From the NCBI GenBank assembly GCA_022703505.1, contig JAKLDN010000002.1:372001-436000 (forward strand): 64,000 nucleotides of DNA, in the 5' to 3' direction. Shown one piece after another: positions 25,653 to 42,007 of the stretch (its first letter is position 1; every line of letters starts with the position of its first letter). The notes beneath the pieces were generated by a model. It was not told the DNA's origin. It saw nothing but the letters and a program-made list of their open reading frames with translations, and did not search any database. The stretch is from Spirochaetota bacterium. Its GTDB lineage: Bacteria; Spirochaetota; Spirochaetia; Treponematales; UBA12059. A program made the translations under genes and the position numbers.

Positions 25653-27833
25653 ATGCGCCTGTCCGCCCCCCGTCCCGCCCTCGTCCTCGCCCTCTCCCTC
25701 CTCCTTGCCGCTGTCCTGCCCGCCCAGACCCTGGCGGGCTTCGACACGGGGCTCTATCGGATCGAGCGGGACGGGTCCTCCCGACCCCTCTGGCTGGGCG
25801 GGGAGGTCAAGAAGATCCTGGCCACCGAGGCCGGCTGGTATTTCCTGAGCTCCCGGGGGGTGGTCCACAGCCGCGACCTTTCGGCCTTCGAGGAGCGGAA
25901 CAAGGGCCTGCCGGTCAAGACGATCAAGCGCTACGACCAGGGGGTCAAGAGCTTCCAGTACGAGATCCAGGATTTGAAGGACCTGGAGGCCGACCCCTAC
26001 GACCCCCGGACCCTGGTGACCTGCACCAAGGACGCCGTGTTCCTGACCCGGGACGGGGGTCTTACATGGACCGCCCTGCCCGCGGCTCCCTCGTGGTCCA
26101 CGGGCCTCAAGGCCGCGGCGGTCGTTTCCGGGACGGAGAACCTGATTTTCGCCTCCCACCCCATCCGGGGCGTCTTCGTCCGTCCCCTGGGAAATCCCGG
26201 GGCGGCCTGGACGGAGGCGGGGGGCCTGGACAGGGCCGCCGGCTCCACCAGCCCGGACGAGGTTTCCGACATCGTCGCGGCCAAGGGGCCCGAGGGGGCC
26301 CGGATCTGGGCGGCCAACTCCTTCCTTCCCCGCCTGTACCGCTGGGATTCCGCGCGGCGCTCCTTCGCGGTGGTCCACGCGGACGACCGGGACTTCGCCG
26401 CCTTCGAGAGCCTCCAGGTCCGGGAGGACGGGGTCCTCTACGTGACGGACGGGGAGATCTACCGCTACGATCCCCGCTCGGGCCGGCACGAGGCCGAGCC
26501 CGGAGCCCTCCGCGCGGTCCTGGCGGCCTCCCGGGCCCAGCCGGGCCAGCTGGAATCCTTCCACGGCGTCGACTCCACGGGCAAGCCCCTCCAGCTTTCC
26601 GAGCTCTGGCTGGCCGCCTTCAAGGACCGCAAGCCCCACCGGCCGGCCGCGGAGGGCCGCCACGGCCTGTACCTCCAGACGGGATTCATGGTGAACCCGG
26701 AAACCCGGGCCAAGTACCTCGGGGTCCTGGGCCGGCACAACCTGGACTCCGTGGTCGTGGACCTCAAGGACGACCTGGGCCGCCTGCGCTTCGAGCCCCG
26801 CACCGAACTGGTCCGGCGCCTGGGACGCTCCGTGAACCCCCTGGACGTGGAGGCCTTCACGGCGGAGATGAAGGCCCGGGGGGTGTACCTGATCGCCCGG
26901 ATCGTGGTCTTCAAGGACAACCACATGTACAAGGCCGCGGGGGGAAAGTACGCGGTCTGGGACTCCGCGGAGAAGGCCCCTTGGCGCGGCTACTTCACGG
27001 AAAAGGTCGAGGCTCCCGCACCCGCCGCTCCGGTACCCTCAACGCCCCCGGCCCTCCTGGCCCCTTCCCGGCCCGCGCCGGGGGCCTCCGTCGCGCCCGC
27101 CGCCCCCCCGGCTCCCGCTCCGACCTACCAGCGGAAGTACATGGAAGAGTATTGGGTGGACCCCTATAGCGAGGAGATCTGGGAGTACAACGTGGCCATC
27201 GCCCGGGAGATCATCGCCCGGGGCTTCGACGAGGTGCAGTTCGACTACATCCGCTTCCCCACGGACGGGGAGAACCTCGGGAACGCCTCGTACCGCTGGA
27301 GGGACCCCGGCATGGACATGGAGAGCGCCCTGATGTCCTTCCTGGGCTACGCCCGGCGGAACATCGAGGCGCCCATCAGCATCGACATCTACGGGGCCAA
27401 CGGCTGGTTCCGGTCCGGGGTGCGGACCGGCCAGGACGTGGAGCTCCTGGCCCGGTACGTGGACGTGATCTGCCCCATGTTCTATCCCTCCCATTTCGAG
27501 CAGGACTTCCTGGCCCAGCCCCCGGAGGAGCTCCGTCCCTACCGGATCTACTACCTGGGGACCCTCCGCAACACCTTCATCGCCCGAAAGCGGGTGGTCG
27601 TGCGCCCCTACGTCCAGGCCTTCTTCCTGAACGTCCGCTATGACCGGAAGTGGTACAACCCCGACTACGTCCGCCGGCAGGTGGAGGGGGTGCGGGACTC
27701 GGCGAACCTGGGGCTCACCTTCTGGAACAATATCGGCCGCTACGACGACATCCCCGTCCTGGATGTCCGGGGGAACCGGAGGCTGGCGGCGGGACCGGAG
27801 GCCCTCCGGCCCAAGGGCGTCCAGCTGGACTAG
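25653..27833 (+). CDS. Secreted DUF4015 (putative glycoside hydrolase) protein
   Basis: 726 residues. A clear signal peptide (about 1-28) precedes a beta-propeller-like region with a BNR/Asp-box type repeat (TRDGGLTWTAL near 127-137). Residues about 345-720 form the DUF4015 barrel: VVVDLKDDLGRL, LIARIVVFKD, DEVQFDYIRFPTDG, ISIDIYGANGWF and ICPMFYPSHF, with Asp/Glu in the positions expected for a glycosidase. A Pro/Ala-rich insertion (about 455-492) splits the barrel. Substrate unknown; surface or periplasmic polysaccharide is plausible. A TACTAT -10-like box lies near 25552, giving a leader of roughly 90 bases. Confidence 0.75.
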   Translation: MRLSAPRPALVLALSLLLAAVLPAQTLAGFDTGLYRIERDGSSRPLWLGGEVKKILATEAGWYFLSSRGVVHSRDLSAFEERNKGLPVKTIKRYDQGVKSFQYEIQDLKDLEADPYDPRTLVTCTKDAVFLTRDGGLTWTALPAAPSWSTGLKAAAVVSGTENLIFASHPIRGVFVRPLGNPGAAWTEAGGLDRAAGSTSPDEVSDIVAAKGPEGARIWAANSFLPRLYRWDSARRSFAVVHADDRDFAAFESLQVREDGVLYVTDGEIYRYDPRSGRHEAEPGALRAVLAASRAQPGQLESFHGVDSTGKPLQLSELWLAAFKDRKPHRPAAEGRHGLYLQTGFMVNPETRAKYLGVLGRHNLDSVVVDLKDDLGRLRFEPRTELVRRLGRSVNPLDVEAFTAEMKARGVYLIARIVVFKDNHMYKAAGGKYAVWDSAEKAPWRGYFTEKVEAPAPAAPVPSTPPALLAPSRPAPGASVAPAAPPAPAPTYQRKYMEEYWVDPYSEEIWEYNVAIAREIIARGFDEVQFDYIRFPTDGENLGNASYRWRDPGMDMESALMSFLGYARRNIEAPISIDIYGANGWFRSGVRTGQDVELLARYVDVICPMFYPSHFEQDFLAQPPEELRPYRIYYLGTLRNTFIARKRVVVRPYVQAFFLNVRYDRKWYNPDYVRRQVEGVRDSANLGLTFWNNIGRYDDIPVLDVRGNRRLAAGPEALRPKGVQLD

Positions 27834-30726: not shown

Positions 30727-31463
30727 AAATTGAATATAGCCCGACGATTCTCCGCGCCGATCCTTCGTAGTTCCTCCATCAAGGGCCTTCCGGGATCCCT
30801 CTTCCGGGACAGCTCTAGGGAGAACTGGTTCATGGAAAAGTGACTGAACACCAGGACCTCCTCCCGGACGGCCGCCGGGGCTTCCCGGTAGAGTCGGGAG
30901 TACTCCCGGAACCAGGACCCGAAGATCCCCTTGGGCTTGAGCTCGGAACGGCCGGAGATCCAGACCGGGACGCCCAGGGCCTCGTGAAGGGCCCGGGCGA
31001 AGAGGGCCATCCACGCCTGGCTCTCCGCCAGCAGGGCCTCCACGGCCCCGCTTGCGTCCAGATTCCTGAGAAGGGCCAGCTCCGCGGTCTTGGGGGTGTG
31101 GACGGGGGTCTTGTTGACGATGAGGACATCCCGCCGGAAATCCGTATCCAGCTCCCTGCGGAAGAAGCCCTCCGCCAGCTTTCCGGACTGGCCTACCAGG
31201 TATCGGAGATTCGCGGATTTTTGCTCCTGCTTGCCCGGGTTGTCCGCGATCAGGATCCACCGGGGACGGGACTCCGGGCCGATGTCGTCGAGGGCCCGGT
31301 TGTACACGACGGGGGTTTCCACGACGTAGTCGTCGTAGCCCCGGGCGATGCGGAGCCTCTCCTGGATATCCCGGAGCTCCGGCACGGCGGCGGTCCACAG
31401 CCGGACCTTTTCCCGGAAGGCGTCCCTCAGGGCTGTGAATTTCTCGTACCGGCGTCGATCCAT
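30723..31463 (-). CDS. Divergent uracil-DNA-glycosylase-superfamily-like protein
   Basis: 246 residues. The order WILIADNPGKQEQ, then GQSGKLAEGFF, then DVLIVNKTPVHTP, and a late VLVFSHFS follows that of family 4/5 uracil-DNA glycosylases (G-E-x-P-G-x-x-E, G-x-x-G-x-L, N-x-x-K, H-P-S), but residues are divergent and no 4Fe-4S cysteines are seen. Activity and substrate are uncertain. The ATG at 31463 is chosen because CACAAT lies seven bases upstream with TTGCGG at 17-base spacing; another ATG at 31472 is in frame. It is divergent from the beta-barrel gene. Confidence 0.45.
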   Translation of the reverse strand: MDRRRYEKFTALRDAFREKVRLWTAAVPELRDIQERLRIARGYDDYVVETPVVYNRALDDIGPESRPRWILIADNPGKQEQKSANLRYLVGQSGKLAEGFFRRELDTDFRRDVLIVNKTPVHTPKTAELALLRNLDASGAVEALLAESQAWMALFARALHEALGVPVWISGRSELKPKGIFGSWFREYSRLYREAPAAVREEVLVFSHFSMNQFSLELSRKRDPGRPLMEELRRIGAENRRAIFNF

Positions 31464-31470
31464 GCCGGGC

Positions 31471-31499
31471 ATTGTGACGGACCCGGCCCGAAGCCGCAA
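31471..31499 (-). promoter_or_regulatory. Promoter of the UDG-like gene
   Basis: Minus strand TTGCGG (31499-31494), 17 bases, CACAAT (31476-31471), seven bases before the ATG at 31463. Confidence 0.6.
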
Positions 31500-31547
31500 G
31501 GGCGGCCGGCAATCCGAGCTCATGTGGATATTGCGGCCCGCCGAGCA

Positions 31548-31553
31548 TATACT
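31548..31553 (+). promoter_or_regulatory. -10 element of the exopolysaccharide-type operon
   Basis: TATACT followed by six bases (GAAGCC) and the ATG at 31560. A weak TGGATA sits 17 bases upstream as possible -35. Confidence 0.5.
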
Positions 31554-31559
31554 GAAGCC

Positions 31560-32339
31560 ATGAAATCCACACGCCGCCTTATGATCGCCCTGGTCCTGCT
31601 CCTGGGCGCGCACGCCGCCTTCGGGCAGGGACGGTTCCGCAACATCCTCTCGCTCAAATTCGAGTACTTCACCGACCAGCGCTTCGGATTGGAGTGGGAG
31701 GAAGTCTTCCTGGCCCCCCTGCCCAAGGGGTTCTACCTGGTGTCCGCGGTCTCCGGCACGAACACGAGCTTTTCCGACCTCACCGGGGGACGCCTGGGGC
31801 TGGCCTTCGATCTGCCCGGTTCCTTCTACGGAGAGTTCTCCTACGAGTTCGAATACGACTGGCGGGTGGCCCAGCCGAAACACACCCCCCTGGTCTCCTG
31901 CACCTACGAGTCGGGACCCGCGATGGCGAGCCTTTCGTTGTCCGGTGAGTTCACCCCGGACAGCGCAGGCGGGGTCCTCTCGCCCTCCCTGAAGTATACC
32001 CTGAATCCCCGGTTTTTCCTGTCCTCCTCCCTGTTCCTCGCCTTCCATCACTACTCCACCTCGGAAAGCTTCTTCAACTTCGCGGCCCTGGCCACGGGGG
32101 AGTACGGGCTGGGACCGGAGATATTCCTGTCCCTCGGCGGTACCTTCGGTACGGTGTACGAGCCCGACGCGCGCTACGAGAAATGGTCCGTCCTCGGGGG
32201 AGTCAAGGTCGTGCCCTCGAATTCGGTCGCGGTGAAGTGTCTCGTCGAGTTCGAGAACGCCGACGCCGCGCCGGTGAACCCCCACAACATCATCTCCGCC
32301 CAGATCGTGGTGGACGTCAAGTTCCGCGCAAAAGAGTGA
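31560..32339 (+). CDS. Outer-membrane beta-barrel protein
   Basis: 259 residues. Signal peptide of about 22 residues ending AAFG/Q. The mature part is a run of amphipathic strands alternating aromatic and small residues (LKFEYFTDQRFGLEW, SFYGEFSYEFEYDW, FFLSSSLFLAFHHYS) typical of a small 8-12-strand barrel, and it ends IVVDVKF-RAKE without a terminal Phe. No Cys. First in a rightward series with the STAS, phosphatase and glycosyltransferase genes, so an export or surface role in polysaccharide production is plausible. It is not a recognised named family. Confidence 0.6.
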   Translation: MKSTRRLMIALVLLLGAHAAFGQGRFRNILSLKFEYFTDQRFGLEWEEVFLAPLPKGFYLVSAVSGTNTSFSDLTGGRLGLAFDLPGSFYGEFSYEFEYDWRVAQPKHTPLVSCTYESGPAMASLSLSGEFTPDSAGGVLSPSLKYTLNPRFFLSSSLFLAFHHYSTSESFFNFAALATGEYGLGPEIFLSLGGTFGTVYEPDARYEKWSVLGGVKVVPSNSVAVKCLVEFENADAAPVNPHNIISAQIVVDVKFRAKE

Positions 32340-32400
32340 GGAAGGCCCGCCCGGGCCGGAGATGTCCGCGAAGCCCCGGGGGATTCGTTCGGGAGGCAGC

Positions 32401-32733
32401 ATGGGGATCGAGACGATCGGCGCGGCGCTCGTATTGACGCCCGAGATCAAGCACCTGGATATCCTGAGCTCCAAGGAGTTCGCGGAACGCTTCGCTCCGG
32501 CGGCGAAGGACGCGCGGACGGTCATCCTGGACCTGTCGCAGGTCGAGTTCGTGGACAGTTCGGGGCTCGGCGCCCTGCTCAACCTCGTCCGGGACACCCT
32601 CGGAAGGGGCGGACGGATCTCGATCTGCCGTCCCCAGCCTTCCGTCAAGGTCCTGTTCCGCATGGTCCAGTTATCGAAGCTCGTCTCCATCTTCGACGGG
32701 AAGGACGCGGCCCTCGCCTGGGCGGAGACATGA
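32401..32733 (+). CDS. STAS-domain anti-sigma-factor antagonist-like protein
   Basis: 110 residues starting at the ATG behind GGGAGGCAGC. The single STAS domain has LDLSQVEFVDSSGLGALL, where the second Ser of DSSG is the usual phosphorylation site, kept here. Proteins of this type switch partners when phosphorylated by an RsbW-like kinase and are reset by a PP2C phosphatase. The next gene, overlapping by ATGA, encodes a PP2C phosphatase with an RsbW-like domain, so the two form a self-contained partner-switch pair. Confidence 0.88.
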   Translation: MGIETIGAALVLTPEIKHLDILSSKEFAERFAPAAKDARTVILDLSQVEFVDSSGLGALLNLVRDTLGRGGRISICRPQPSVKVLFRMVQLSKLVSIFDGKDAALAWAET

Positions 32734-34415
32734 GCGGAGTCCCTCCCGACCTGATACCCTGGGTTCCGGCCGCCGCGGTATCCGTGTCGCTCTGCGCACT
32801 TGCCGCGGCCGCGGTACTTGCGGCCCGGCGAGGTCCCCTCCTGCCCCTCGATCGGCCGGAGTACCGCGAGTTCGCCGCCTCCCTGGACGGAGCCGTCGCC
32901 CTGATCTCCGGGGACCTGGAGAAGGTCCTGTACGCGAGCCCCGGTTTCGAGCCCCTCTTCGGGTCGACTCCGGATCGCGTCTCCTTCCGGCGGCTGGAGG
33001 GCGTCGTGCACGCCGAGGATCTGGAGGCCCTGGAGTCGGCCCTCTCCGCAGGCCGCATGCGGCCCTTCGAGGTGGAATTCCGGATCCGGTCGGAGGGAGA
33101 GCCGCGCTGGCTGCGGATGCGGGGCTTCCCGGTGGCGGGAACGGGGAGGAAGGCCGCCCGCAGGATCGCCGTGTGGGTGGAGGACCGGTCCCTGCGCAAG
33201 ACCGACGAGCTCAGGCTGGTGGAGGCCCTCGACTACGAGGTGGCCGTGGGGGCCCGCATCCAGCAGGCCCTGCTCCTGGGGAGTCCGGAGCGGGCGTACC
33301 CGGGCTTCGATCTGGCCTCCATGACCCTGCCTTCCCAGAAGATCGACGGGGATTTCATGGATTTCTTCGACGGCGGACCCGAGGTGCTGGATCTCATGCT
33401 CGGGGACGTGATGGGAAAGGGCGTCCCCGCGGCCCTGACGGGCGCCGCGGCTTGCAACGCCTTCTTCCGTGCCCGGCTTTCCCTGGCGGAACAGGCGGGG
33501 GAATCCCTTCCCCCCGTGAAGGACATCGTCCGCGGCGCGGAGGAACGTATCGCCGGGAAGCTCATGGACCTGCGCACCTTCTTCACCCTGGTGTACGGCC
33601 GCCTGGACGGGAAGCGGGGACTGTACCGCTACGTGGACTGCGGGCATACGAGCGTCCTCCATTTCGAGCGGAAGACCGGGCGCTGCTGGAGGCTCAAAGG
33701 CGCGAACGCCCCGGTGGGGTTCCTGCCCGAGCAGGACTACGTCGAGTACGCGGTGCCGCTCTCTCCCGGGGACCTTCTGTTCCTGTACTCCGACGGGATC
33801 ACGGAAGCCGAGAATTCCGAAGGGGAGCGGTTCGGGGAGGAGCGCCTCATGAAGCTCGTGGGATCCCACTCCGCTCTGGACGCCGCGGCGCTCCTGGACA
33901 AGGTCAAGCACATCGCCTTCGCCTACGCCGGGGGGGATTTCAAGGACGACGTCACGGCCCTGGCGGTGCGCGTCGCCTCCGGCCCCTCCGTCCGGACCGC
34001 GCGCCGCTCATTCCCCCAGTCGATGGACTCCCTGCGGGCGGTACGGGAGTTCTACCGCGCCTGCGCGGACCGTGCCCTGTCGGCCTCCCTTCCCTCCGAG
34101 GACCTGGACGCCCTGCTCATCGCGACCGGCGAGGCCGCCGCGAACATCTTCCGGCACAGCGTACCGGACCGGCCGGCCGACTGCACGGCGGCCTTCCGGG
34201 TGTCCGATTCCTGGGCCGCCTTCTATCTCTACTATCGGGGGGCGGATTACGAATGGCAGGAGCCGACCGCCCCGCCCATCGAGAGCTACCCCGCGGGGGG
34301 CTACGGCCTGTACCTCATCAACGAGGCCATGGATTCCGTGACCGTCTCGCCGGGGGAGGACGGGGAGGTTCGTCTCTGCATGCTGGTCGACCTGGCGTCG
34401 AGGGCGCGCCCTTGA
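32730..34415 (+). CDS. PP2C (SpoIIE/RsbU-type) phosphatase with PAS and RsbW-like ATPase domain
   Basis: 561 residues. One N-terminal membrane helix (about 10-33), a PAS-like domain (46-155), a PP2C domain (170-415) with the metal Asp residues in KIDGDFMDFF, LGDVMGKGVPAAL, LYSDGITEAEN and DDVTALAV, and a C-terminal RsbW/SpoIIAB-like ATPase domain (430-560) with N box ATGEAAANIFRHS and GGYGLYLINEAMD. The G1-box Asp of the ATPase appears replaced (YYRGADYEW), so kinase activity is doubtful while the phosphatase looks intact. SypE of Vibrio fischeri combines the same two activities in biofilm control. Overlaps STAS by ATGA and the next gene by TTGA. Confidence 0.85.
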   Translation: MSGVPPDLIPWVPAAAVSVSLCALAAAAVLAARRGPLLPLDRPEYREFAASLDGAVALISGDLEKVLYASPGFEPLFGSTPDRVSFRRLEGVVHAEDLEALESALSAGRMRPFEVEFRIRSEGEPRWLRMRGFPVAGTGRKAARRIAVWVEDRSLRKTDELRLVEALDYEVAVGARIQQALLLGSPERAYPGFDLASMTLPSQKIDGDFMDFFDGGPEVLDLMLGDVMGKGVPAALTGAAACNAFFRARLSLAEQAGESLPPVKDIVRGAEERIAGKLMDLRTFFTLVYGRLDGKRGLYRYVDCGHTSVLHFERKTGRCWRLKGANAPVGFLPEQDYVEYAVPLSPGDLLFLYSDGITEAENSEGERFGEERLMKLVGSHSALDAAALLDKVKHIAFAYAGGDFKDDVTALAVRVASGPSVRTARRSFPQSMDSLRAVREFYRACADRALSASLPSEDLDALLIATGEAAANIFRHSVPDRPADCTAAFRVSDSWAAFYLYYRGADYEWQEPTAPPIESYPAGGYGLYLINEAMDSVTVSPGEDGEVRLCMLVDLASRARP

Positions 34416-36412
34416 GGGGCATCCGGGAGTTCGGGGACGGGATCTACCGCATAGCCGCGGCGGGGGAGCCGAGGTTGTTCCCCGGGTACTCGTACCTGGT
34501 CACGGACGCGGGCAGGGGCGTCCTTTTGGACCCCGGCCCCGCGTCGGACTTCGCCGCGACCCTGGCCCTCTGCCGGTCGGTGATCTCCCCGGAACGCATT
34601 TCCTTCCTGATCCTGACCTCCGAGACCCCGGACGCCGCCTCCAGCCTTCCCCTGTGGCCCGCTTCCGGCTTCTCGGGTAGGGTCCTGGCCCACTGGAAGG
34701 CGGGACTCCAGGCCCGATGCTATGGGGGTCCGGAAATCCGGGACCTGGGGAACCATGAGGAACGGATCTCCTTCGGCGGCGGCAGGACCTTCCGCTTCGT
34801 CAACGTGCCCGGCCTGCCGTCCGCGGGCTCGATCTTCTGCCTGGACGAGGCCTCCGGGAGCCTGTTCACCGGCATGGCCCTGGGCTCGGTGGGAGGGGGC
34901 GAGACGGAGGGGGACGAGGAGTCTCCCGGAAGGATTGAGTCCTTCCACGACCTCGTGTTCCCCGCCCTGGGCGCCCGGCCGGACGTCCTCGCGGCCCTGG
35001 CTTCCCTGTCCCCCCGCAGGATCCTTCCCCGGAACGGCCCCCCCGTCGAGCGGCATCTGTCCGTCGCCTCCGTCCTGTTCGGGTGCGGGGACGGGGCGGC
35101 CTGCGGACCCGGGGACCTCCCGGAAGCCTGCGCCCGCCTGATCGGGGAGGTGAACCAGCGCCTTGCCGACGTGTTCTCCCCTGCGGAGCTCCGGGACGTC
35201 CTGGCCGAGACCGGGCTGGGCTTCGGCGCGGACGGCCGCCCGGAGCCCGCGGACCTCGCGCCCTCGGACCTGCTGGAGCGGTACTTCGACACCCTGGCCC
35301 GGGTGAAGGGTCCGGTGTGGATCTCCCTCGTGCGGGCCCACGTCGCCCGGGGGACGGAGGCCCTGGGGATCCCCCTGCCCGCCGCCTTCGATCGGTTCGG
35401 CCGGGAGATCGACCGGGGCATCGGCGGCCTGATCCGGGACATCGAGAGGATCCGGACGGAGAACATCGAGCTCCAGAAATCCATCATCCAGGCCAGCGAC
35501 GACCACCTCAAGGATCCCGTCACGGGGTACTACAACGAGATCTTCTTCAAGGAATACCTGGACGACCTTCTCCTGGCGGAAGCCGGCGCCGGGACACCGC
35601 CGGGATCGGTGGCCTTCATCCGTCTGGACGGTATCCGGAAGCTCAACGAGCGGTTCGGGACGGAGGCGGGCGACACCGCCTTGAAGGCCCTGGGCCTGCA
35701 CCTGCTCGACACCAAGAGGCCGAACTCGATCTTCTTCCGGATGAACGGCCCGCTGTTCGCCTGCTATCTCCAGGGGGACGGAAAGACGCAGGCCGTGGAC
35801 TACGTGCGGGAGCTGCAGGCGGAGGTGGAGGGCTCGGGACGCTTCGTGGAGAAGGTGACCGTGTCGGCGGCGATCGTGGAGCTTTCCGAGATCTCCACCG
35901 TGGCCGCGGAGACGGGAAAGCCCTACGCATGCCTGATGAAGGTCTGCAAGGAGCGCATCCACCTTCTGGACAAGCTCGGCCCGGCCTCCATCTGCCACGA
36001 GTCCTCGGTGACCCTCCGGAGGAACCGGGGGAACGTCCTGGTGATCGAAGCCAGCCCCTTCGAGGCCGACCTCCTGCGGAAGGTCCTGGAACGGGAAGGG
36101 TTCGAGGTGCACTCGGTGACGAGGGGGGGCGAGGCCCTGGCCCACGCGGACCTCTACAGGCCCGACGTGATCGTTTCGGAGATCTTCGTCTCCCAGATGG
36201 ACGGCTTCCAGATACGCCAACGCCTGCTCGCGTCTCCGGACCTGAAGAACATCCCCTTCATCCTGGTCTCCTGGGACAAGGGGGCCTCCGCCCTGCGCCA
36301 GGCCTTCGACCTGGGCATCCTCCATTTCTACAAGAAACCCGTCCAGCCGGAGGAGCTCATCGGGATCATCAAGCTGCTCGCCGGGGAGGCGTCCGAGGAG
36401 CGCCGGCCTTGA
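34412..36412 (+). CDS. Degenerate diiron-MBL / GGDEF / receiver signalling protein
   Basis: 666 residues from a TTG overlapping the previous stop. Residues 1-210 follow the metallo-beta-lactamase-fold diiron domain of flavodiiron/ODP proteins (GIYRIAAAGEP, YLVTDAGRGVLLDPGP), but the ligand segment reads TSETPDAASSLP instead of H-x-E-x-D-H, and later His and Asp ligands are Pro and Met. A helical coiled-coil region leads to a GGDEF domain (about 370-525) with NGPLF in place of GGDEF. The C-terminal receiver (540-660) has EA for the acidic pair and Glu for the phospho-acceptor (VIVSEIF), with the switch Lys kept (YKKPV). Probably a non-catalytic sensor or scaffold for the glycosyltransferase encoded next. 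Confidence 0.75.
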   Translation: MRGIREFGDGIYRIAAAGEPRLFPGYSYLVTDAGRGVLLDPGPASDFAATLALCRSVISPERISFLILTSETPDAASSLPLWPASGFSGRVLAHWKAGLQARCYGGPEIRDLGNHEERISFGGGRTFRFVNVPGLPSAGSIFCLDEASGSLFTGMALGSVGGGETEGDEESPGRIESFHDLVFPALGARPDVLAALASLSPRRILPRNGPPVERHLSVASVLFGCGDGAACGPGDLPEACARLIGEVNQRLADVFSPAELRDVLAETGLGFGADGRPEPADLAPSDLLERYFDTLARVKGPVWISLVRAHVARGTEALGIPLPAAFDRFGREIDRGIGGLIRDIERIRTENIELQKSIIQASDDHLKDPVTGYYNEIFFKEYLDDLLLAEAGAGTPPGSVAFIRLDGIRKLNERFGTEAGDTALKALGLHLLDTKRPNSIFFRMNGPLFACYLQGDGKTQAVDYVRELQAEVEGSGRFVEKVTVSAAIVELSEISTVAAETGKPYACLMKVCKERIHLLDKLGPASICHESSVTLRRNRGNVLVIEASPFEADLLRKVLEREGFEVHSVTRGGEALAHADLYRPDVIVSEIFVSQMDGFQIRQRLLASPDLKNIPFILVSWDKGASALRQAFDLGILHFYKKPVQPEELIGIIKLLAGEASEERRP

Positions 36413-39252
36413 TTCTTCCGATATCCCTCCTGCTATTTTTCCTGGCGGCGAACGGCGTCACGGTCCTGGCGCTTCTGGTCGTCAAGCGGCGAGGGCGCGT
36501 GATCTACCGCCGGGCCCAGACCGTGCGGGGCGCGCTCATCTCGGCGGTGATCGACCGGGACCGGTCCGGGCTCGGGAAGCTGGCACGGAGGAATTCCGGC
36601 CTTTCGATCCGGCTCTGGGCCGACCTGAGGGCGACCTTCTACTTCACGGACCGGGAGGCGGAGCCCGTGCTGGAGGTGTTCCGATCGTCCGGGATCGAGG
36701 CGCGGCTCCTGCGGCGGCTCCGCTCCCGCGAGCCCCTGGAACGCTTCCGCGCCTCCCGCATGCTCCTGCCCCTGGTGTCTCCGGGGATCGTGCCCGCTCT
36801 CGTCCGGGCCCTCCACCGGGAGACCCGGGATTTCGTCCGGATCGCCCTGGTCAAGGATCTGCTGTCCTCGGACCTGAGCCCGGCCTACGACGCGATAGCC
36901 GAGAGCCTGCGGGACTGCGGGATGGGGTATTTCCGTTCCGTCCGCGCGATGCTGGCGGCGGTCGGGAACGGCTTCGTCGACTGGGCACGGGATCGCCTCG
37001 TGCCCTCGGACCCGGGATTCGCCGTCGCGGTGCTGGCGGGGGCCCGGACCCACCCCGCCCCGTGGCTCCGGGATTTCGTCCTCATCTGCCTGGACCATGA
37101 CGATCCCCGGATCCGGAGCTCCGCCATCGAGGCCGCGGAATCCCTCTACCCCGAGATGCTGGCCGGCCGCGCGGAGGACAGGGGCGCGGACATCGTGACC
37201 CGCCGGGCCTCCCTTCGCGCCCAGGCGGAGGTATCTTATCCCCTGGACCTGGAAGCCTTCGCCGAATACCTGACGGACCCGACCCTCCGGGACGTGGCGG
37301 CCTCCTGCCTGTCCGAATACCTCGGGCGCTACCCGGAGGAGGCGGGCCGGATCCTGGAACTCCTGTCCCGTCTGCCGGATTCCGAGGCCGCCCGCGCCCT
37401 GGCAGGGGTCCTGGGCGTCCGGCTGCCCTTCCTGTTCGTCTCGGGAGAGGATCCCGGGCGCTGTCGGCGCGTCGTGGAAGGCCTGGCCGCCTCGGGCCGC
37501 AGTTCGGAGATCATCGCCCTGCTCAACTCCAACCGGGACTCCGAGCTGGAGGGGCTCCTGCTGGAGTGGATACGGCCGTATCTCGGGACGGTTCCGGAGT
37601 TCCGCAGGGACTGCGCGGGATACCTGGAGCCCCGCCTGCGGGAGGCCCTGGGCATCGCCCCCGAGGAGGTCCCGAAGAGCTCCCGGAAGATTCCCCTGAC
37701 CCGCCGGGACCGGCTTAGGCTGGTGGTCGTGCTGGCGGCCGTGGTCGCCGTGCCTTCGGCGGCCATCGCCTACGGCCTTTCCGGGGCCACCATCGGCAGG
37801 ACCTGGATCCTGGCCCGGGAGATCTTCCGCCTGTTCACCTGGGGCTTCGCCTTCTACGCGGTCTTCCTGAACCTGGTGTACATCGTCCTCCTGCTGCTGG
37901 CCGCGCGGAACCTGGGCATCCAGGCGAAGTACTGGGCCGTCCTGGACAAGGACTTCCTGTTCACCCCGGGAATCATGCCCTCCATCTCGATCCTGGCGCC
38001 GGCGTACAACGAGGAGAAGACCGTGCTGGAGAGCGTGCACTCCCTGCTGTCCCTCCAGCATCCCGACTACCAGGTCATCGTCATCAACGATGGGTCCTCG
38101 GACGACACGATGGGCGTCCTTGCGAGGGCCTTCGACCTGGAGCGGATGGATCCGAGCAGGACCGGATCCCTGCCGACGGCCCCCGTGCGGGGGGTGTACC
38201 GGTCGCCGGGCAACCCGAAGCTCCTGGTCGTGGACAAGGAGAACGGGGGCAAGGCGGACGCCCTGAACGCGGGCATCAACCTGGCCCGCTGCGAGTACAT
38301 CTGCAGTATCGATTCCGACTCCCTCCTCGAGCCCGACGCCCTGCTCCGGATGACCGCGGAGGTGCTCACCTCGGACGTCGAGACCGTGGCCGTGGGCGGC
38401 AACATACTTCCCGTGAACGGATGCACCGTGGAACGGGGCATGCTGCAGAAGATAGGCCTGCCATCGAATCGGATCGCCCGGTTCCAGACCATCGAATACC
38501 TCCGGTCCTTCATAGCCGGCCGCCTGGGCTGGGCCCAGATCAACGCCCTCCTGATAATCTCCGGGGCCTTCGGACTCTTCCGGCGGGACCGGGTGCTGGA
38601 GATCGGGGGCTACCTCACGGGGCGGGGGGAGTTCAAGCGGGACACGGTGGGGGAGGACATGGAGCTGGTCGTCCGCCTGGTCCGGAGGATGCGGGAGTCC
38701 CGGCGGAAGTACCGGATACGGTACGCCGCCACGGCGAACTGCTGGACCGAGGTCCCCGAAAGCCTGGGGGGGCTGTACAAGCAGAGGGACCGCTGGCATC
38801 GGGGCCTGGTGGAGATCATGACCTGGCACCGGAAGATGTTGTTCAATCCGAAGTACGGATCGGCGGGGCTGCTGGCCTTTCCCTATTTCCTCGCGTTCGA
38901 GGTGATCGGCCCCTTCTACGAGTTCGCCGGGTATCCCCTCATGATCCTCGGCTTCGCGGTCGGGGCCCTGAGCCTTCCCGTCTTCCTGGTCATGTTCAGC
39001 GCGGTCCTCCTGTTCGGACTGCTCATCTCCCTGGTCTCCCTGGCCCTGTCCGAACGGGATATCGTGTACTTCCGACCCGTGGAGCTGGCCCGGCTCCTGG
39101 GGTACTCCATCCTGGAGAACTTCGGGTTCCGCCAGCTCATGGGCTGGGTCCGGGTGTTTTCCGTCCTCCAGCTCCTGACCCGGAACAAGGGTTGGCAGAA
39201 GCTGGAGCGGAAGGGATTCCTGCCGTCTAGGGTTCCAGGACCAGCTCCGTAG
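36409..39252 (+). CDS. HEAT-like repeat / processive family 2 glycosyltransferase fusion
   Basis: 947 residues from a TTG overlapping the previous stop (TTGA). Membrane helix 1-22, then about 400 residues of alpha-helical HEAT-like repeats (RFRASRMLLPLVSPGIVPALVRAL, DDPRIRSSAIEAAESL), two helices (435-457, 475-503), and a GT2 domain from about 523: ILAPAYNEEKTV, VINDGSSDD, SIDSDS, GEDMELV and the processivity motif Q-x-x-R-W (QRDRW, residue 792). Several C-terminal helices (820-890) complete a PgaC/BcsA-like synthase. Likely makes an extracellular beta-glycan; the sugar is not predictable. The 3' end overlaps the facing deacetylase gene by 26 bases. Confidence 0.85.
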   Translation: MILPISLLLFFLAANGVTVLALLVVKRRGRVIYRRAQTVRGALISAVIDRDRSGLGKLARRNSGLSIRLWADLRATFYFTDREAEPVLEVFRSSGIEARLLRRLRSREPLERFRASRMLLPLVSPGIVPALVRALHRETRDFVRIALVKDLLSSDLSPAYDAIAESLRDCGMGYFRSVRAMLAAVGNGFVDWARDRLVPSDPGFAVAVLAGARTHPAPWLRDFVLICLDHDDPRIRSSAIEAAESLYPEMLAGRAEDRGADIVTRRASLRAQAEVSYPLDLEAFAEYLTDPTLRDVAASCLSEYLGRYPEEAGRILELLSRLPDSEAARALAGVLGVRLPFLFVSGEDPGRCRRVVEGLAASGRSSEIIALLNSNRDSELEGLLLEWIRPYLGTVPEFRRDCAGYLEPRLREALGIAPEEVPKSSRKIPLTRRDRLRLVVVLAAVVAVPSAAIAYGLSGATIGRTWILAREIFRLFTWGFAFYAVFLNLVYIVLLLLAARNLGIQAKYWAVLDKDFLFTPGIMPSISILAPAYNEEKTVLESVHSLLSLQHPDYQVIVINDGSSDDTMGVLARAFDLERMDPSRTGSLPTAPVRGVYRSPGNPKLLVVDKENGGKADALNAGINLARCEYICSIDSDSLLEPDALLRMTAEVLTSDVETVAVGGNILPVNGCTVERGMLQKIGLPSNRIARFQTIEYLRSFIAGRLGWAQINALLIISGAFGLFRRDRVLEIGGYLTGRGEFKRDTVGEDMELVVRLVRRMRESRRKYRIRYAATANCWTEVPESLGGLYKQRDRWHRGLVEIMTWHRKMLFNPKYGSAGLLAFPYFLAFEVIGPFYEFAGYPLMILGFAVGALSLPVFLVMFSAVLLFGLLISLVSLALSERDIVYFRPVELARLLGYSILENFGFRQLMGWVRVFSVLQLLTRNKGWQKLERKGFLPSRVPGPAP

Positions 39253-41158
39253 TCCCCGCGGGCAGGTCGAGTACGAAGGTGCCGTTCGCCCCGCGGGGCG
39301 CGGCGATGCGGAAACCTTCGGGAAGCCGTATGCCGAGTCCCCGGACGGGAAGGGGCGAGGAGAGCCGGAGTACCCGGCGGTCTCCGGAAGGGACCACGTC
39401 GGACTCGACCCCGTCCCGGGCCGTCCACCAGTCCCCGAACTCGCGCAGGGTTCCCCACCAGGCCTTTTCGCGCATCCTCTCCGAGAAGGCCCGGAGGAAC
39501 CGGAGCTTCTCCGCGGTTACGTTGGGGTGGATGAGGATGACGAAGAGCCCCCCGTAGCGGGAGATCTTTCCCGCCAGCTCCACCGCGTCCTCGACCCGGC
39601 CGTCCATGGGCGGATCCTTCTCGTCCTCCACGGTGATGGGAAACTCGTAGACCGCGGTCTCCGACCGGTACAGGCGGTCGTGGTTCAGGCGGAAGGGCAG
39701 GTGGGTCATCACGTCGTTGGCCGCCACCGCGGAGGAATACCGGTACCCCGCGGATTCCAGGGACTGGGGCAGGGAAAAGGGGTTGGCCAGGAACCCGGGC
39801 CGGAACGAATCGACCCGGGACCGGGACAGGCGCTCGATCAGGAATTTGCTGACCCGCAGCTCCCCCATGATCGTCGCGTTCCTCGTGTAGTAGAACTCGA
39901 TGATCCGGGGCTGGTAGTCGGGGTAGGACTCCCGGAAGGTTCCCTGCGGCACCCGGGCGAACATGTCCGAATGGCAGACCGAGTGGCTGGCCAGCTCCAT
40001 CCCCAGCTCCTCCAGCCGTGCCAGGAGCTCCGGGGTCCGCTCGTCGAAGAAGACCTCGTCGAAGAAATCCCGGAAGTACTTGGTCTGCAGAAAATAGGTC
40101 GCGCCGTATCCCATGCTCCGCTCGTACTCCGCGTACTCCACGCTGTTGGCCAGGGACCCCGCGTAGTCCACGTCGTGGGAGACGACGACCGAGAGGGGCA
40201 TGCCGTCCGGGGCGGGGTGGAGGAAGACCGCGTCCGGCTCCCGGGCGCGGTACACCTCCCCGAGAAACCGGAGCAGGGAGTCCACGGAGGGCTCGAAGGA
40301 GTTCACGTAGGTGCGGTTGGCCTCGTCGTCCCGGTTCCCCTGGGCGCCCTGGATGTACCGGCCGAGGTCGAAGCCGAAGGCCATCGCGGTCCCGGCTCCG
40401 TCACGGCGCCGGATGACCGCCGCCCCCCCGTCCTCGTACCGGGCGAGCACTTCCTCCGGGTCCGAGAAGGCCGCCGTACGGAGCCTGTACCGGGCGCGGT
40501 CGGGATTGCCAAGACGCGTGGTCCGCTCCTCGGGATACTCGAGGCCGGCGGCGAAGGGGCTGTCCTCGTAGCGGAGTTCGGACCTCCGCCGGTTCCGGAC
40601 GGCTCCCCGGAACCCGAAGAGGGCCTCGACCCGGGGCTCCGGCCGGCCGGTCTGGACCGCCAGGAGGGTCCCGCCCCCGCGCACGAAATCCTCCAGCCGC
40701 CGCGCCTCCGTGTCGTCCAGGCTCCCCCGCTTGAAACCCGGGTAGGCCAGGACCACGTCGTGCTCCAGGGCGGAGTCCAGGGAATCCGTGACGCGGAAGG
40801 GTATGCCCAGGGACTTGAAGCCGTGGACCAGGCCCAGCCAGGAGGACCGGGGATCCGTCAGGAGGACGGCCAGTCGGGAGGGAGAGCCCTCCCCGTAGGT
40901 CCGCCAGTCCGCCGGGACTTCCCCGGGCTTCGGAGAGGCGGCCTCCGGCCCCCGTACGCCCGGAAGGTCCACATATTCCTCCCGGGCTTGCCGGACCAAC
41001 CGGGATTCCGGGCCGACGCCCTCGAGCCCGGGCACGGTGTAACGCCCCGAACCTCCGGACCCGCAGGACGCCGCGAGAGCCAGGGCGGAGGCGGCAAGGG
41101 CGAGGCGGAGGGCGGCGGAAAGGACGCGGCGCGGGGCAGGGCGGAACGAGGACGGCAT
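39227..41158 (-). CDS. Lipoprotein polysaccharide deacetylase-like protein
   Basis: 643 residues. Signal sequence with lipobox LALAASC (Cys near residue 32). Residues about 80-290 form a glutamine-amidotransferase-like or Rossmann-type region (LAVLLTDPRSSWLG, VLAYPGFKRG, FVRGGGTLLAV). The C-terminal half is a NodB-type deacetylase: VVSHDVDYAG (catalytic Asp and metal Asp), ELASHSVCHSDMF (H-S-x-x-H), SFRPGF and FVILIHPN. Metal ligands are intact. Facing a PgaC-like synthase, it may N-deacetylate the polymer as PgaB or IcaB do for PNAG. The start follows TATACT by seven bases; no ribosome site. Confidence 0.75.
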   Translation of the reverse strand: MPSSFRPAPRRVLSAALRLALAASALALAASCGSGGSGRYTVPGLEGVGPESRLVRQAREEYVDLPGVRGPEAASPKPGEVPADWRTYGEGSPSRLAVLLTDPRSSWLGLVHGFKSLGIPFRVTDSLDSALEHDVVLAYPGFKRGSLDDTEARRLEDFVRGGGTLLAVQTGRPEPRVEALFGFRGAVRNRRRSELRYEDSPFAAGLEYPEERTTRLGNPDRARYRLRTAAFSDPEEVLARYEDGGAAVIRRRDGAGTAMAFGFDLGRYIQGAQGNRDDEANRTYVNSFEPSVDSLLRFLGEVYRAREPDAVFLHPAPDGMPLSVVVSHDVDYAGSLANSVEYAEYERSMGYGATYFLQTKYFRDFFDEVFFDERTPELLARLEELGMELASHSVCHSDMFARVPQGTFRESYPDYQPRIIEFYYTRNATIMGELRVSKFLIERLSRSRVDSFRPGFLANPFSLPQSLESAGYRYSSAVAANDVMTHLPFRLNHDRLYRSETAVYEFPITVEDEKDPPMDGRVEDAVELAGKISRYGGLFVILIHPNVTAEKLRFLRAFSERMREKAWWGTLREFGDWWTARDGVESDVVPSGDRRVLRLSSPLPVRGLGIRLPEGFRIAAPRGANGTFVLDLPAGTTELVLEP

Positions 41159-41165
41159 GTCAAGG

Positions 41166-41194
41166 AGTATACCCGCACGAGGCGGATCGGTCAC
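41166..41194 (-). promoter_or_regulatory. Promoter of the deacetylase gene
   Basis: Minus strand GTGACC (41194-41189), 17 bases, TATACT (41171-41166), seven bases before the ATG at 41158. Confidence 0.5.
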
Positions 41195-41208
41195 GTCCCG
41201 CGCCCCGG

Positions 41209-41238
41209 TTGCCTCCGCGATCCGGTTCGCCGTATCCT
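41209..41238 (+). promoter_or_regulatory. Promoter of the VanY-type peptidase gene
   Basis: TTGCCT (41209-41214), 18 bases, TATCCT (41233-41238), seven bases before the ATG at 41246. Confidence 0.55.
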
Positions 41239-41245
41239 CAGAGCC

Positions 41246-42007
41246 ATGCGATACGCCCTGCTGACCACGGCCTGCATCCTGCTCGCGGCCTGCATGCCGC
41301 CGGCCCCCAAATCCCCGCCCTCGGACCCCCTGGCACCCTACCGGGCCGCCCTGGCGGGCCTCCCCCCGGAGATCATGGCCCGGGCCGAAGCCGCTCCGGT
41401 ACGGTTTGCCGGGCTTCTCCGCCGGATCTGGGCCGTGGAGGACCCCCTGTACCTTGCTCGGGTGGACAAGGAGAAGCCCCTCCCCGCCGACTACGAGCCC
41501 GGGGACCTGGTTTCCCTTGCGGAATACCCTTTCGCCCTGGCCCGCCGGGACCTCCGCCTTCGGAAGCCCGCCGCGGAGGCCGCCCGGGAGCTGGACGCCG
41601 CGGCCAAGGCTGCGGGGGTGACCCTGGTCTTCTCCTCCGCATATCGATCCTACGCGTACCAGTCCGAGGTCTACGAACGGCACGTCCGGGAGCTGGGCGA
41701 GGCAGCCGCGGACCGTATTTCCGCCCGGCCCGGCCGGTCCCAGCATCAGCTAGGAACCGTGGTGGATTTCGGATCCATCGACAATACCTTCGCGGAATCC
41801 AAGGCGGGGCTCTGGATGGCCGCCAACGCGGGCCGCTTCGGTTTTTCCCTGTCGTACCCCCGGGGGGCCGAGGGCCTGACCGGGTACGACTGGGAAAGCT
41901 GGCACTACCGGTACGTCGGAAAGGAGGCCGCGGCCCTGGAGGCGGAGTTCTTCGGCCTCCAGCACTGGATGCTGGTCTTCCTGGAAAGGCTATTCTCGGG
42001 ATTTTGA
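41246..42007 (+). CDS. VanY-type D-alanyl-D-alanine carboxypeptidase lipoprotein
   Basis: 253 residues. Lipobox ILLAAC (Cys at about 16). The peptidase_M15 zinc site is visible: FSSAYRSYAYQ, SQHQLGTVVDFG (His and Asp ligands) and the ESWHYRYVG motif with catalytic Glu and the third ligand His. It trims the terminal D-Ala of peptidoglycan stem peptides in the periplasm. No van resistance genes are nearby, so a housekeeping wall role is likely. The 3' end overlaps the convergent transporter gene by 18 bases. Confidence 0.82.
   Translation: MRYALLTTACILLAACMPPAPKSPPSDPLAPYRAALAGLPPEIMARAEAAPVRFAGLLRRIWAVEDPLYLARVDKEKPLPADYEPGDLVSLAEYPFALARRDLRLRKPAAEAARELDAAAKAAGVTLVFSSAYRSYAYQSEVYERHVRELGEAAADRISARPGRSQHQLGTVVDFGSIDNTFAESKAGLWMAANAGRFGFSLSYPRGAEGLTGYDWESWHYRYVGKEAAALEAEFFGLQHWMLVFLERLFSGF

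Follow-up and report, generated by a model that had tools for sequence, protein, structure and literature searches.

A spirochaete locus that joins a HEAT-fused GT2 synthase to a degenerate ODP-GGDEF-REC partner, with a STAS/PP2C module as its possible input

The window analyzed here is a stretch of 64,000 nucleotides from the 3.66 Mb draft genome of a Spirochaetota bacterium; a plasmid-borne origin was rejected, as there was no near match in PLSDB. Six genes lie within positions 31560-41158, and their order, strands and coordinates were confirmed. Five of them form a rightward unit (31560-39252) encoding, in order, a β-barrel, a STAS protein, a PAS-PP2C-HATPase protein, an ODP-GGDEF-REC protein and a HEAT/GT2 protein, while the sixth, encoding a NodB-type lipoprotein, is convergent with them. 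The features are as follows.

31525..31553, plus strand: leaderless-type promoter-like site TGGATA-17-TATACT, ending 6 nt short of the barrel start codon; also upstream of the orthologues in L061-L063
31560..32339, plus strand: outer-membrane β-barrel and candidate export pore, 259 aa with a signal peptide, from an AlphaFold2 model
32401..32733, plus strand: single-domain STAS protein of SpoIIAA/RsbV type (PF01740 at 1.7e-18; TIGR00377 over its cut-off)
32730..34415, plus strand: membrane-anchored PAS-PP2C(SpoIIE)-HATPase protein, from Pfam, a TM segment at 14-32 and alignments
34412..36412, plus strand: putative regulator or adaptor ODP-GGDEF-REC with all three domains degenerate, from Pfam, alignments and a ligand count
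36409..39252, plus strand: HEAT-solenoid and processive GT2 polysaccharide synthase, as predicted from GT2 motifs, AlphaFold2 and structure alignment
39227..41158, minus strand: lipoprotein (lipobox AASC), DUF4350-like in its N-terminal part, that carries a NodB-type deacetylase domain (SHDVD, SHSxxH)
41166..41194, minus strand: promoter-like site GTGACC-17-TATACT immediately preceding the deacetylase start codon and shared by L061 and L063

The starts of the PP2C, ODP-GGDEF-REC and GT2 genes (ATGA, TTGA and TTGA) each overlap the preceding stop codon by 4 nt, the ODP-GGDEF-REC gene beginning with TTG over the PP2C stop and the GT2 gene with TTG over the ODP-GGDEF-REC stop. Because 4-nt overlaps are the usual sign of coupling, these three genes are read as translationally coupled. 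The barrel gene ends at 32339 and the STAS gene starts at 32401, preceded by a plausible ribosome site; the NodB and GT2 genes, on opposite strands, overlap at their 3' ends. Across 31350-41900 only two sigma-70-like promoter sites were found, each ending 6-7 nt short of a start codon, one that of the barrel gene and the other that of the NodB gene. Gene order, strands and coordinates agree with the sequence-only reading made earlier of this DNA, which had proposed one rightward unit faced by a NodB lipoprotein. The arrangement TATACT-N5-8-ATG occurs at 82 sites in the genome, two of them in the window (31548-31562 and 41156-41171), compared to 17 for the reversed control. This promoter type being common in the genome, a special shared regulon of the barrel and deacetylase genes was rejected, and the two sites are probably ordinary transcription starts of leaderless messages. 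The roughly fivefold excess over the reversed control suggests in its own right that leaderless transcripts are widespread in this spirochaete.

The last gene of the unit encodes a protein with the layout TM (2-48), solenoid (55-414), TM (432-511), GT-A (526-800) and TM (814-924). Its AlphaFold2 model, built from a 45-sequence alignment (pLDDT 87, pTM 0.85), begins with a TM helix and an α-solenoid of ~360 residues, followed by a TM pair and then the GT-A domain, and ends in three long helices. HEAT_2 matches were obtained in 38 of the 45 synthase relatives and are sub-threshold in the window protein. The GT2 motifs DGS, NGGKAD, DxD, GED and QRxRW are intact, and most of them, including QxxRW, are invariant in the 45 sequences. 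In VIA-align, residues 471-942 matched hyaluronan synthase at Z 22-26 over about 390-400 residues and the cellulose synthase BcsA at Z 21-25, with hyaluronan and cellulose matches spanning about 360-400 residues. Motifs and model together provide the GT-A fold, the D/D/ED/QxxRW motifs and the TM channel helices of a processive synthase, and the earlier call of a polymer-type processive GT2 is borne out by them. The best reading of the HEAT-GT2 protein is thus a processive polymer synthase, as predicted from its motifs and modeled fold, and the locus probably yields a secreted polymer. The nearest NCBIfam model is PgaC_IcaA (1.1e-39), with 136.6 bits against an equivalog cut-off of 422.3; identity as a PNAG synthase, being far under that cut-off, was not established.

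Relatives of the synthase were sought in 84,980 species genomes, which yielded at least 578, and the best 80 were retained. The region upstream was compared in loci with at least 1.5 kb upstream of the GT2 gene (n=73). In 68 of these 73 an ODP-GGDEF-REC gene lies immediately upstream of the HEAT-GT2 gene; of the five exceptions, three involve ORFs that are split or too long. The paired loci come from Spirochaetota, Bacillota, Mycoplasmatota, Fibrobacterota and Chloroflexota, and within Spirochaetota the synthase is patchy (16/296 sampled genomes). The gene order proved to be conserved in relatives, where the sequence-only reading had proposed to look for co-localization, and because of this conservation a chance assembly of the locus is excluded. 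STAS and PP2C genes, by contrast, adjoin the pair in one clade only. Judged from gene neighborhoods, the obligate partner of the synthase is therefore the ODP-GGDEF-REC protein and not the STAS/PP2C pair, and the STAS/PP2C pair as core of the polysaccharide system was ruled out by its restriction to that clade. A search of open-licence PMC papers on HEAT-GT2 proteins, ODP-GGDEF proteins and spirochaete synthase loci returned nothing on the HEAT-GT2/adaptor family; this is a dedicated synthase/regulator pair of which no description was found in the papers searched.

Pfam assigned the three domains of this partner as ODP (7.9e-17), GGDEF (1.8e-10) and REC (3.4e-15), the first being the metallo-β-lactamase-type, oxygen-binding diiron family PF19583. 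It had been called a pseudo-enzyme scaffold: the description suits the window protein, which is degenerate, and is refined by the ODP assignment, but it missed that the ODP diiron site is apparently intact in most relatives. The GGDEF signature is degenerate in all 65 aligned adaptors (NGPLF in the window protein). At the phospho-acceptor position of REC, 61 of the 65 have Glu (Glu590 in the window protein), with the catalytic Lys (or Arg) and Ser retained. All six diiron ligands (HDDHDH) are present in 38 of 63 typed adaptors, whereas the window ODP has one of six left, reading STDPMN (S70, T72, D74, P136, M155 and N208). A phmmer search with the Acetobacterium-type adaptor L082 matched oxygen-binding diiron proteins of known structure (E 1e-29 and 8e-24), and its ligands HQDPD / H / D / H (HxDxD-H-D-H) align one-to-one with those of the solved ODPs 6qrq/6qnm. 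The ancestor of the adaptor was, from these alignments, probably an O2 or redox sensor, and since the intact site is widely spread, we infer that the diiron site was lost rather than gained. The site is also gone, with no STAS gene nearby, in three other lineages: independently in Rectinema-like (L075, L078, L097, L113, L116) and Mycoplasmatota (L115-L140) adaptors, and in Trichococcus. The Rectinema-like adaptors have a conserved substitute pattern, HQQEPSSSS, PYLYQPG and PSYGP, at the lost site.

Control by a STAS/PP2C partner switch had been proposed for this locus, and its components are partly as expected. The STAS protein has the phospho-acceptor motif VDSSGLG, with the Ser and motif region conserved in eight aligned members. 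The next protein contains PAS, SpoIIE (2.5e-40) and HATPase_c_2 (1.2e-12) domains, and the metal-binding Asp residues of its PP2C part are present. What does not fit is the RsbW-like HATPase domain, which keeps the N box and G2 but has Tyr or Phe in place of the G1 (DxGxG) Asp of the ATP site in the aligned module members. These residues indicate that the PP2C phosphatase is probably live and the HATPase kinase probably not. Without the G1 Asp, classical reversible partner switching is doubtful, and a kinase in trans would be needed if the STAS protein is phosphorylated. Elsewhere in the genome, two stand-alone RsbW-like kinases encoded next to other STAS genes retain G1 as DEGEG, and with 10 STAS and nine SpoIIE proteins in this genome, cross-talk is possible. 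The G1 box is missing, too, from another RsbW-like domain (C7:301803-302123, L186) that is encoded next to STAS and SpoIIE genes, so that dead kinases in STAS/PP2C modules, as judged by this motif, may recur in this genome.

Both STAS and PP2C genes adjoin the synthase pair in a single clade of the GT2 tree (SH-aLRT 99; L061-L065, L068, L109) and also at L147 and L155, which are both absent from that tree. Wherever the two occur together, the order STAS-PP2C-adaptor-synthase is fixed. Among the typed members of this clade, all but one have lost the diiron site; the exception, L067, has five of the six ligands left and a STAS gene with no PP2C gene adjoining. On sequence, L067 looks like an intermediate. 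Gain of STAS/PP2C and loss of the ODP site make up one independent pair on the tree, and because this is a single evolutionary event, the link between them is suggestive only and has no statistical support.

The whole is best explained, with a probability of about 0.52, as a synthase-dependent exopolysaccharide system in which a phospho-switch feeds a dead-enzyme adaptor on the synthase. The HEAT-GT2 protein would polymerize a nucleotide-sugar on the cytoplasmic side of the inner membrane and pass the chain through its own TM channel, after which the 14-strand barrel would export it and the NodB lipoprotein would trim acetyl groups. The ODP-GGDEF-REC protein would be a non-catalytic, obligate adaptor that docks on the cytoplasmic HEAT solenoid and gates the synthase. 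Such gating through the solenoid, suggested by the near-invariant pairing and the translational coupling, is rather probable. In the majority of relatives, O2 (or NO/redox) would set the state of the adaptor by acting on its diiron ODP domain; in the window clade, where that site is gone, the STAS protein, dephosphorylated by the membrane-anchored PAS-PP2C protein, would give the input instead. Dephosphorylated STAS would then either bind or release the adaptor, so that polymer production is switched post-translationally. The chances that the STAS/PP2C pair is a direct post-translational input to the adaptor are about even, and the direct coupling of STAS to the synthase that the sequence-only reading had put forward stays an inference. 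We propose only tentatively the wider view of a widespread synthase class with an adaptor of retired signaling domains, responsive to O2 or NO at a diiron site in most members, in which the window clade has a dead sensor, the STAS/PP2C pair took over and the adaptor became the direct STAS target.

The main rival takes the STAS/PP2C pair for a conventional partner switch of transcription, in which the STAS protein would release a sigma factor bound by an anti-sigma kinase encoded elsewhere, and its place in the operon would serve only feedback. Canonical STAS proteins do act on anti-sigma kinases (PMC8256260), the genome has other STAS/SpoIIE/RsbW-like sets, two of them with an intact G1 box, and the local kinase is degenerate, so that a kinase in trans is needed anyway. 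However, no sigma factor or separate anti-sigma gene was seen in the locus, the STAS-PP2C genes stand always directly before the adaptor in fixed order, and the nearest functional analogues, SypA and HmpV, are likewise without a known sigma target (PMC8256260). We consider this explanation unlikely, and favor the adaptor as the STAS target.

A second alternative is that the adaptor is still run by a small ligand, be it a nucleotide (c-di-GMP or GTP) bound by GGDEF or a metal or redox ligand, with the STAS/PP2C pair acting in parallel. Degenerate GGDEF proteins gate GT2 synthases elsewhere, an example being PssE of Listeria (PMC4125290). Here, however, the RxxD I-site was found in none of the 65 aligned adaptors, which rules out c-di-GMP reception through that site; one of six diiron ligands remains in the window protein, and no EAL, PilZ or HD-GYP gene lies within the unit, all of which makes a ligand-run adaptor improbable. 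That the GT2 product is a lipid-linked sugar or glycolipid instead of a secreted polymer is the least probable of the alternatives: the top VIA-align row, the archaeal membrane GT2 PcManGT (Z 27.2), was set aside as evidence for it, with hyaluronan synthases within about 1-2 Z and, like cellulose synthases, matching nearly as well over longer stretches, and the invariant QxxRW motif of processive enzymes and the presence, here or in relatives, of the outer-membrane barrel, the deacetylase and GH72-like and GH16 neighbors argue against it.

The favored reading, with the adaptor as gate, can be set beside several known systems. In SypE of Vibrio fischeri a central REC domain lies between the kinase (RsbW) and phosphatase (PP2C) domains, the window protein being instead a PAS-SpoIIE-degenerate HATPase protein with no REC, and we know of no ODP-GGDEF-REC adaptor in syp. 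The SypA/SypE precedent offered by the sequence-only reading is thus an analogy and not a homology, as both the SypE architecture and the syp genes differ. The likeness is that a STAS protein and a PP2C/RsbW-like regulator lie inside a polysaccharide locus (PMC8256260), which for syp is an 18-gene locus (PMC4517449). Partner switches of polysaccharide are known from SypA/SypE and HmpUVW, with the targets of the STAS proteins SypA and HmpV unknown according to a 2021 review (PMC8256260), and the locus offers a concrete candidate for such a target in the dead ODP-GGDEF-REC adaptor, which is small enough for pull-down.

Binding of a STAS-type protein to a GGDEF protein has precedents in HsbA-HsbD (PMC5085249) and SiaC-SiaD (PMC8457831), and the HsbR-HsbA-HsbD and SiaABCD systems of P. 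aeruginosa resemble the locus in partnering a STAS or STAS-like protein with a biofilm GGDEF protein (PMC5085249, PMC8457831). HsbD and SiaD are active diguanylate cyclases, whereas the window protein has a degenerate GGDEF domain and belongs to a synthase operon. A degenerate GGDEF protein in a GT2 exopolysaccharide operon is also a feature of Listeria PssA-E and, functionally, of B. subtilis YdaK. Exopolysaccharide synthesis in Listeria requires PssE, which binds c-di-GMP via its I-site (PMC4125290); PssE keeps that site, whereas the window adaptor has none, has extra ODP and REC domains and accompanies a HEAT-fused synthase. ODPs are O2 sensors of chemotaxis in Treponema denticola (PMC7666581). 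The ODPs of Treponema denticola and Thermotoga resemble the first domain of the adaptor, most relatives sharing all six ligand positions, but the T. denticola protein is partnered with chemotaxis (PMC7666581) and the window adaptor with a synthase, its diiron site lost. The combination in one obligate synthase adaptor, together with a change of input, was not found in the papers searched. From the family one would expect many anaerobes, Acetobacterium and Sphaerochaeta among them, to gate polymer production by O2. The family is also a case of one regulator whose input appears changed in one lineage: with the diiron sensor lost in the clade carrying STAS/PP2C, polymer production would answer to a different signal.

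Next to the synthase unit stand the candidates for export and modification. The β-barrel expected from the sequence-only reading is seen in the AlphaFold2 model as 14 strands (pLDDT 87.6, pTM 0.78), encoded in the same unit as the synthase, and an orthologue occupies the same place in L061-L063 and L065. Foldseek matched it to OmpG (TM about 0.7), to the PgaA barrel 4y25 (E 2.9e-7) and to many other porins. Such porin-type matches leave the cargo unspecified, and from the model the barrel may serve as an export pore. The NodB deacetylase, also called earlier, has the SHDVD and SHSxxH motifs; its Polysacc_deac_1 match is weak (2.2e-4, under the Pfam cut-off), and an XrtA-type deacetylase model matched at 9.8e-5. 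Homologues of this lipoprotein were found in the window clade only, plus a fragment in L119. An outer-membrane barrel, a deacetylase lipoprotein and a GT2 nearest PgaC recall PgaABCD/IcaADBC, the PNAG systems; the differences are the PgaC score already given, no PgaD gene seen, a barrel without a TPR part and a deacetylase without a detected PgaB-like partner domain.

A deacetylase and an outer-membrane barrel recur in other spirochaete loci in a different form, a putative NodB-barrel fusion. In L067, L068, L101, L103, L105, L111, L112 and L117 a NodB domain is followed by a long C-terminal part that is barrel-like by sequence. The fusion is ~800 aa in L067/L068, adjoins GH16-like genes and the HEAT-GT2 locus, and is present in Sphaerochaeta too; a deacetylase and pore in one piece, if the barrel-like part is what it seems, would be unusual.

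A conserved, membrane-anchored protein of ~1000 aa (L073:12144-15341 and 38 other proteins) lies beside the synthase in 37 loci. It was GH72-like in two of the 14 scanned (best 4.6e-6), otherwise gave no Pfam or NCBIfam match, and had no PDB relatives in a profile search. With its invariant Glu residues it may represent a new family of glycoside hydrolases or transglycosylases. The usual substrates are β-glucans for GH72 and GH16 enzymes and amino-sugar polymers for deacetylases, so the GH72-like and GH16 neighbors in relatives are a hint at a β-glucan that fits poorly with a de-N-acetylase. GH16 and ~1000 aa GH72-like partners were not found in the window genome, in a search whose first round had no positive control. 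A few genes upstream of the unit and on the same strand, the window also encodes a DUF4015 putative glycosyl hydrolase (25653-27833, 7.3e-79).
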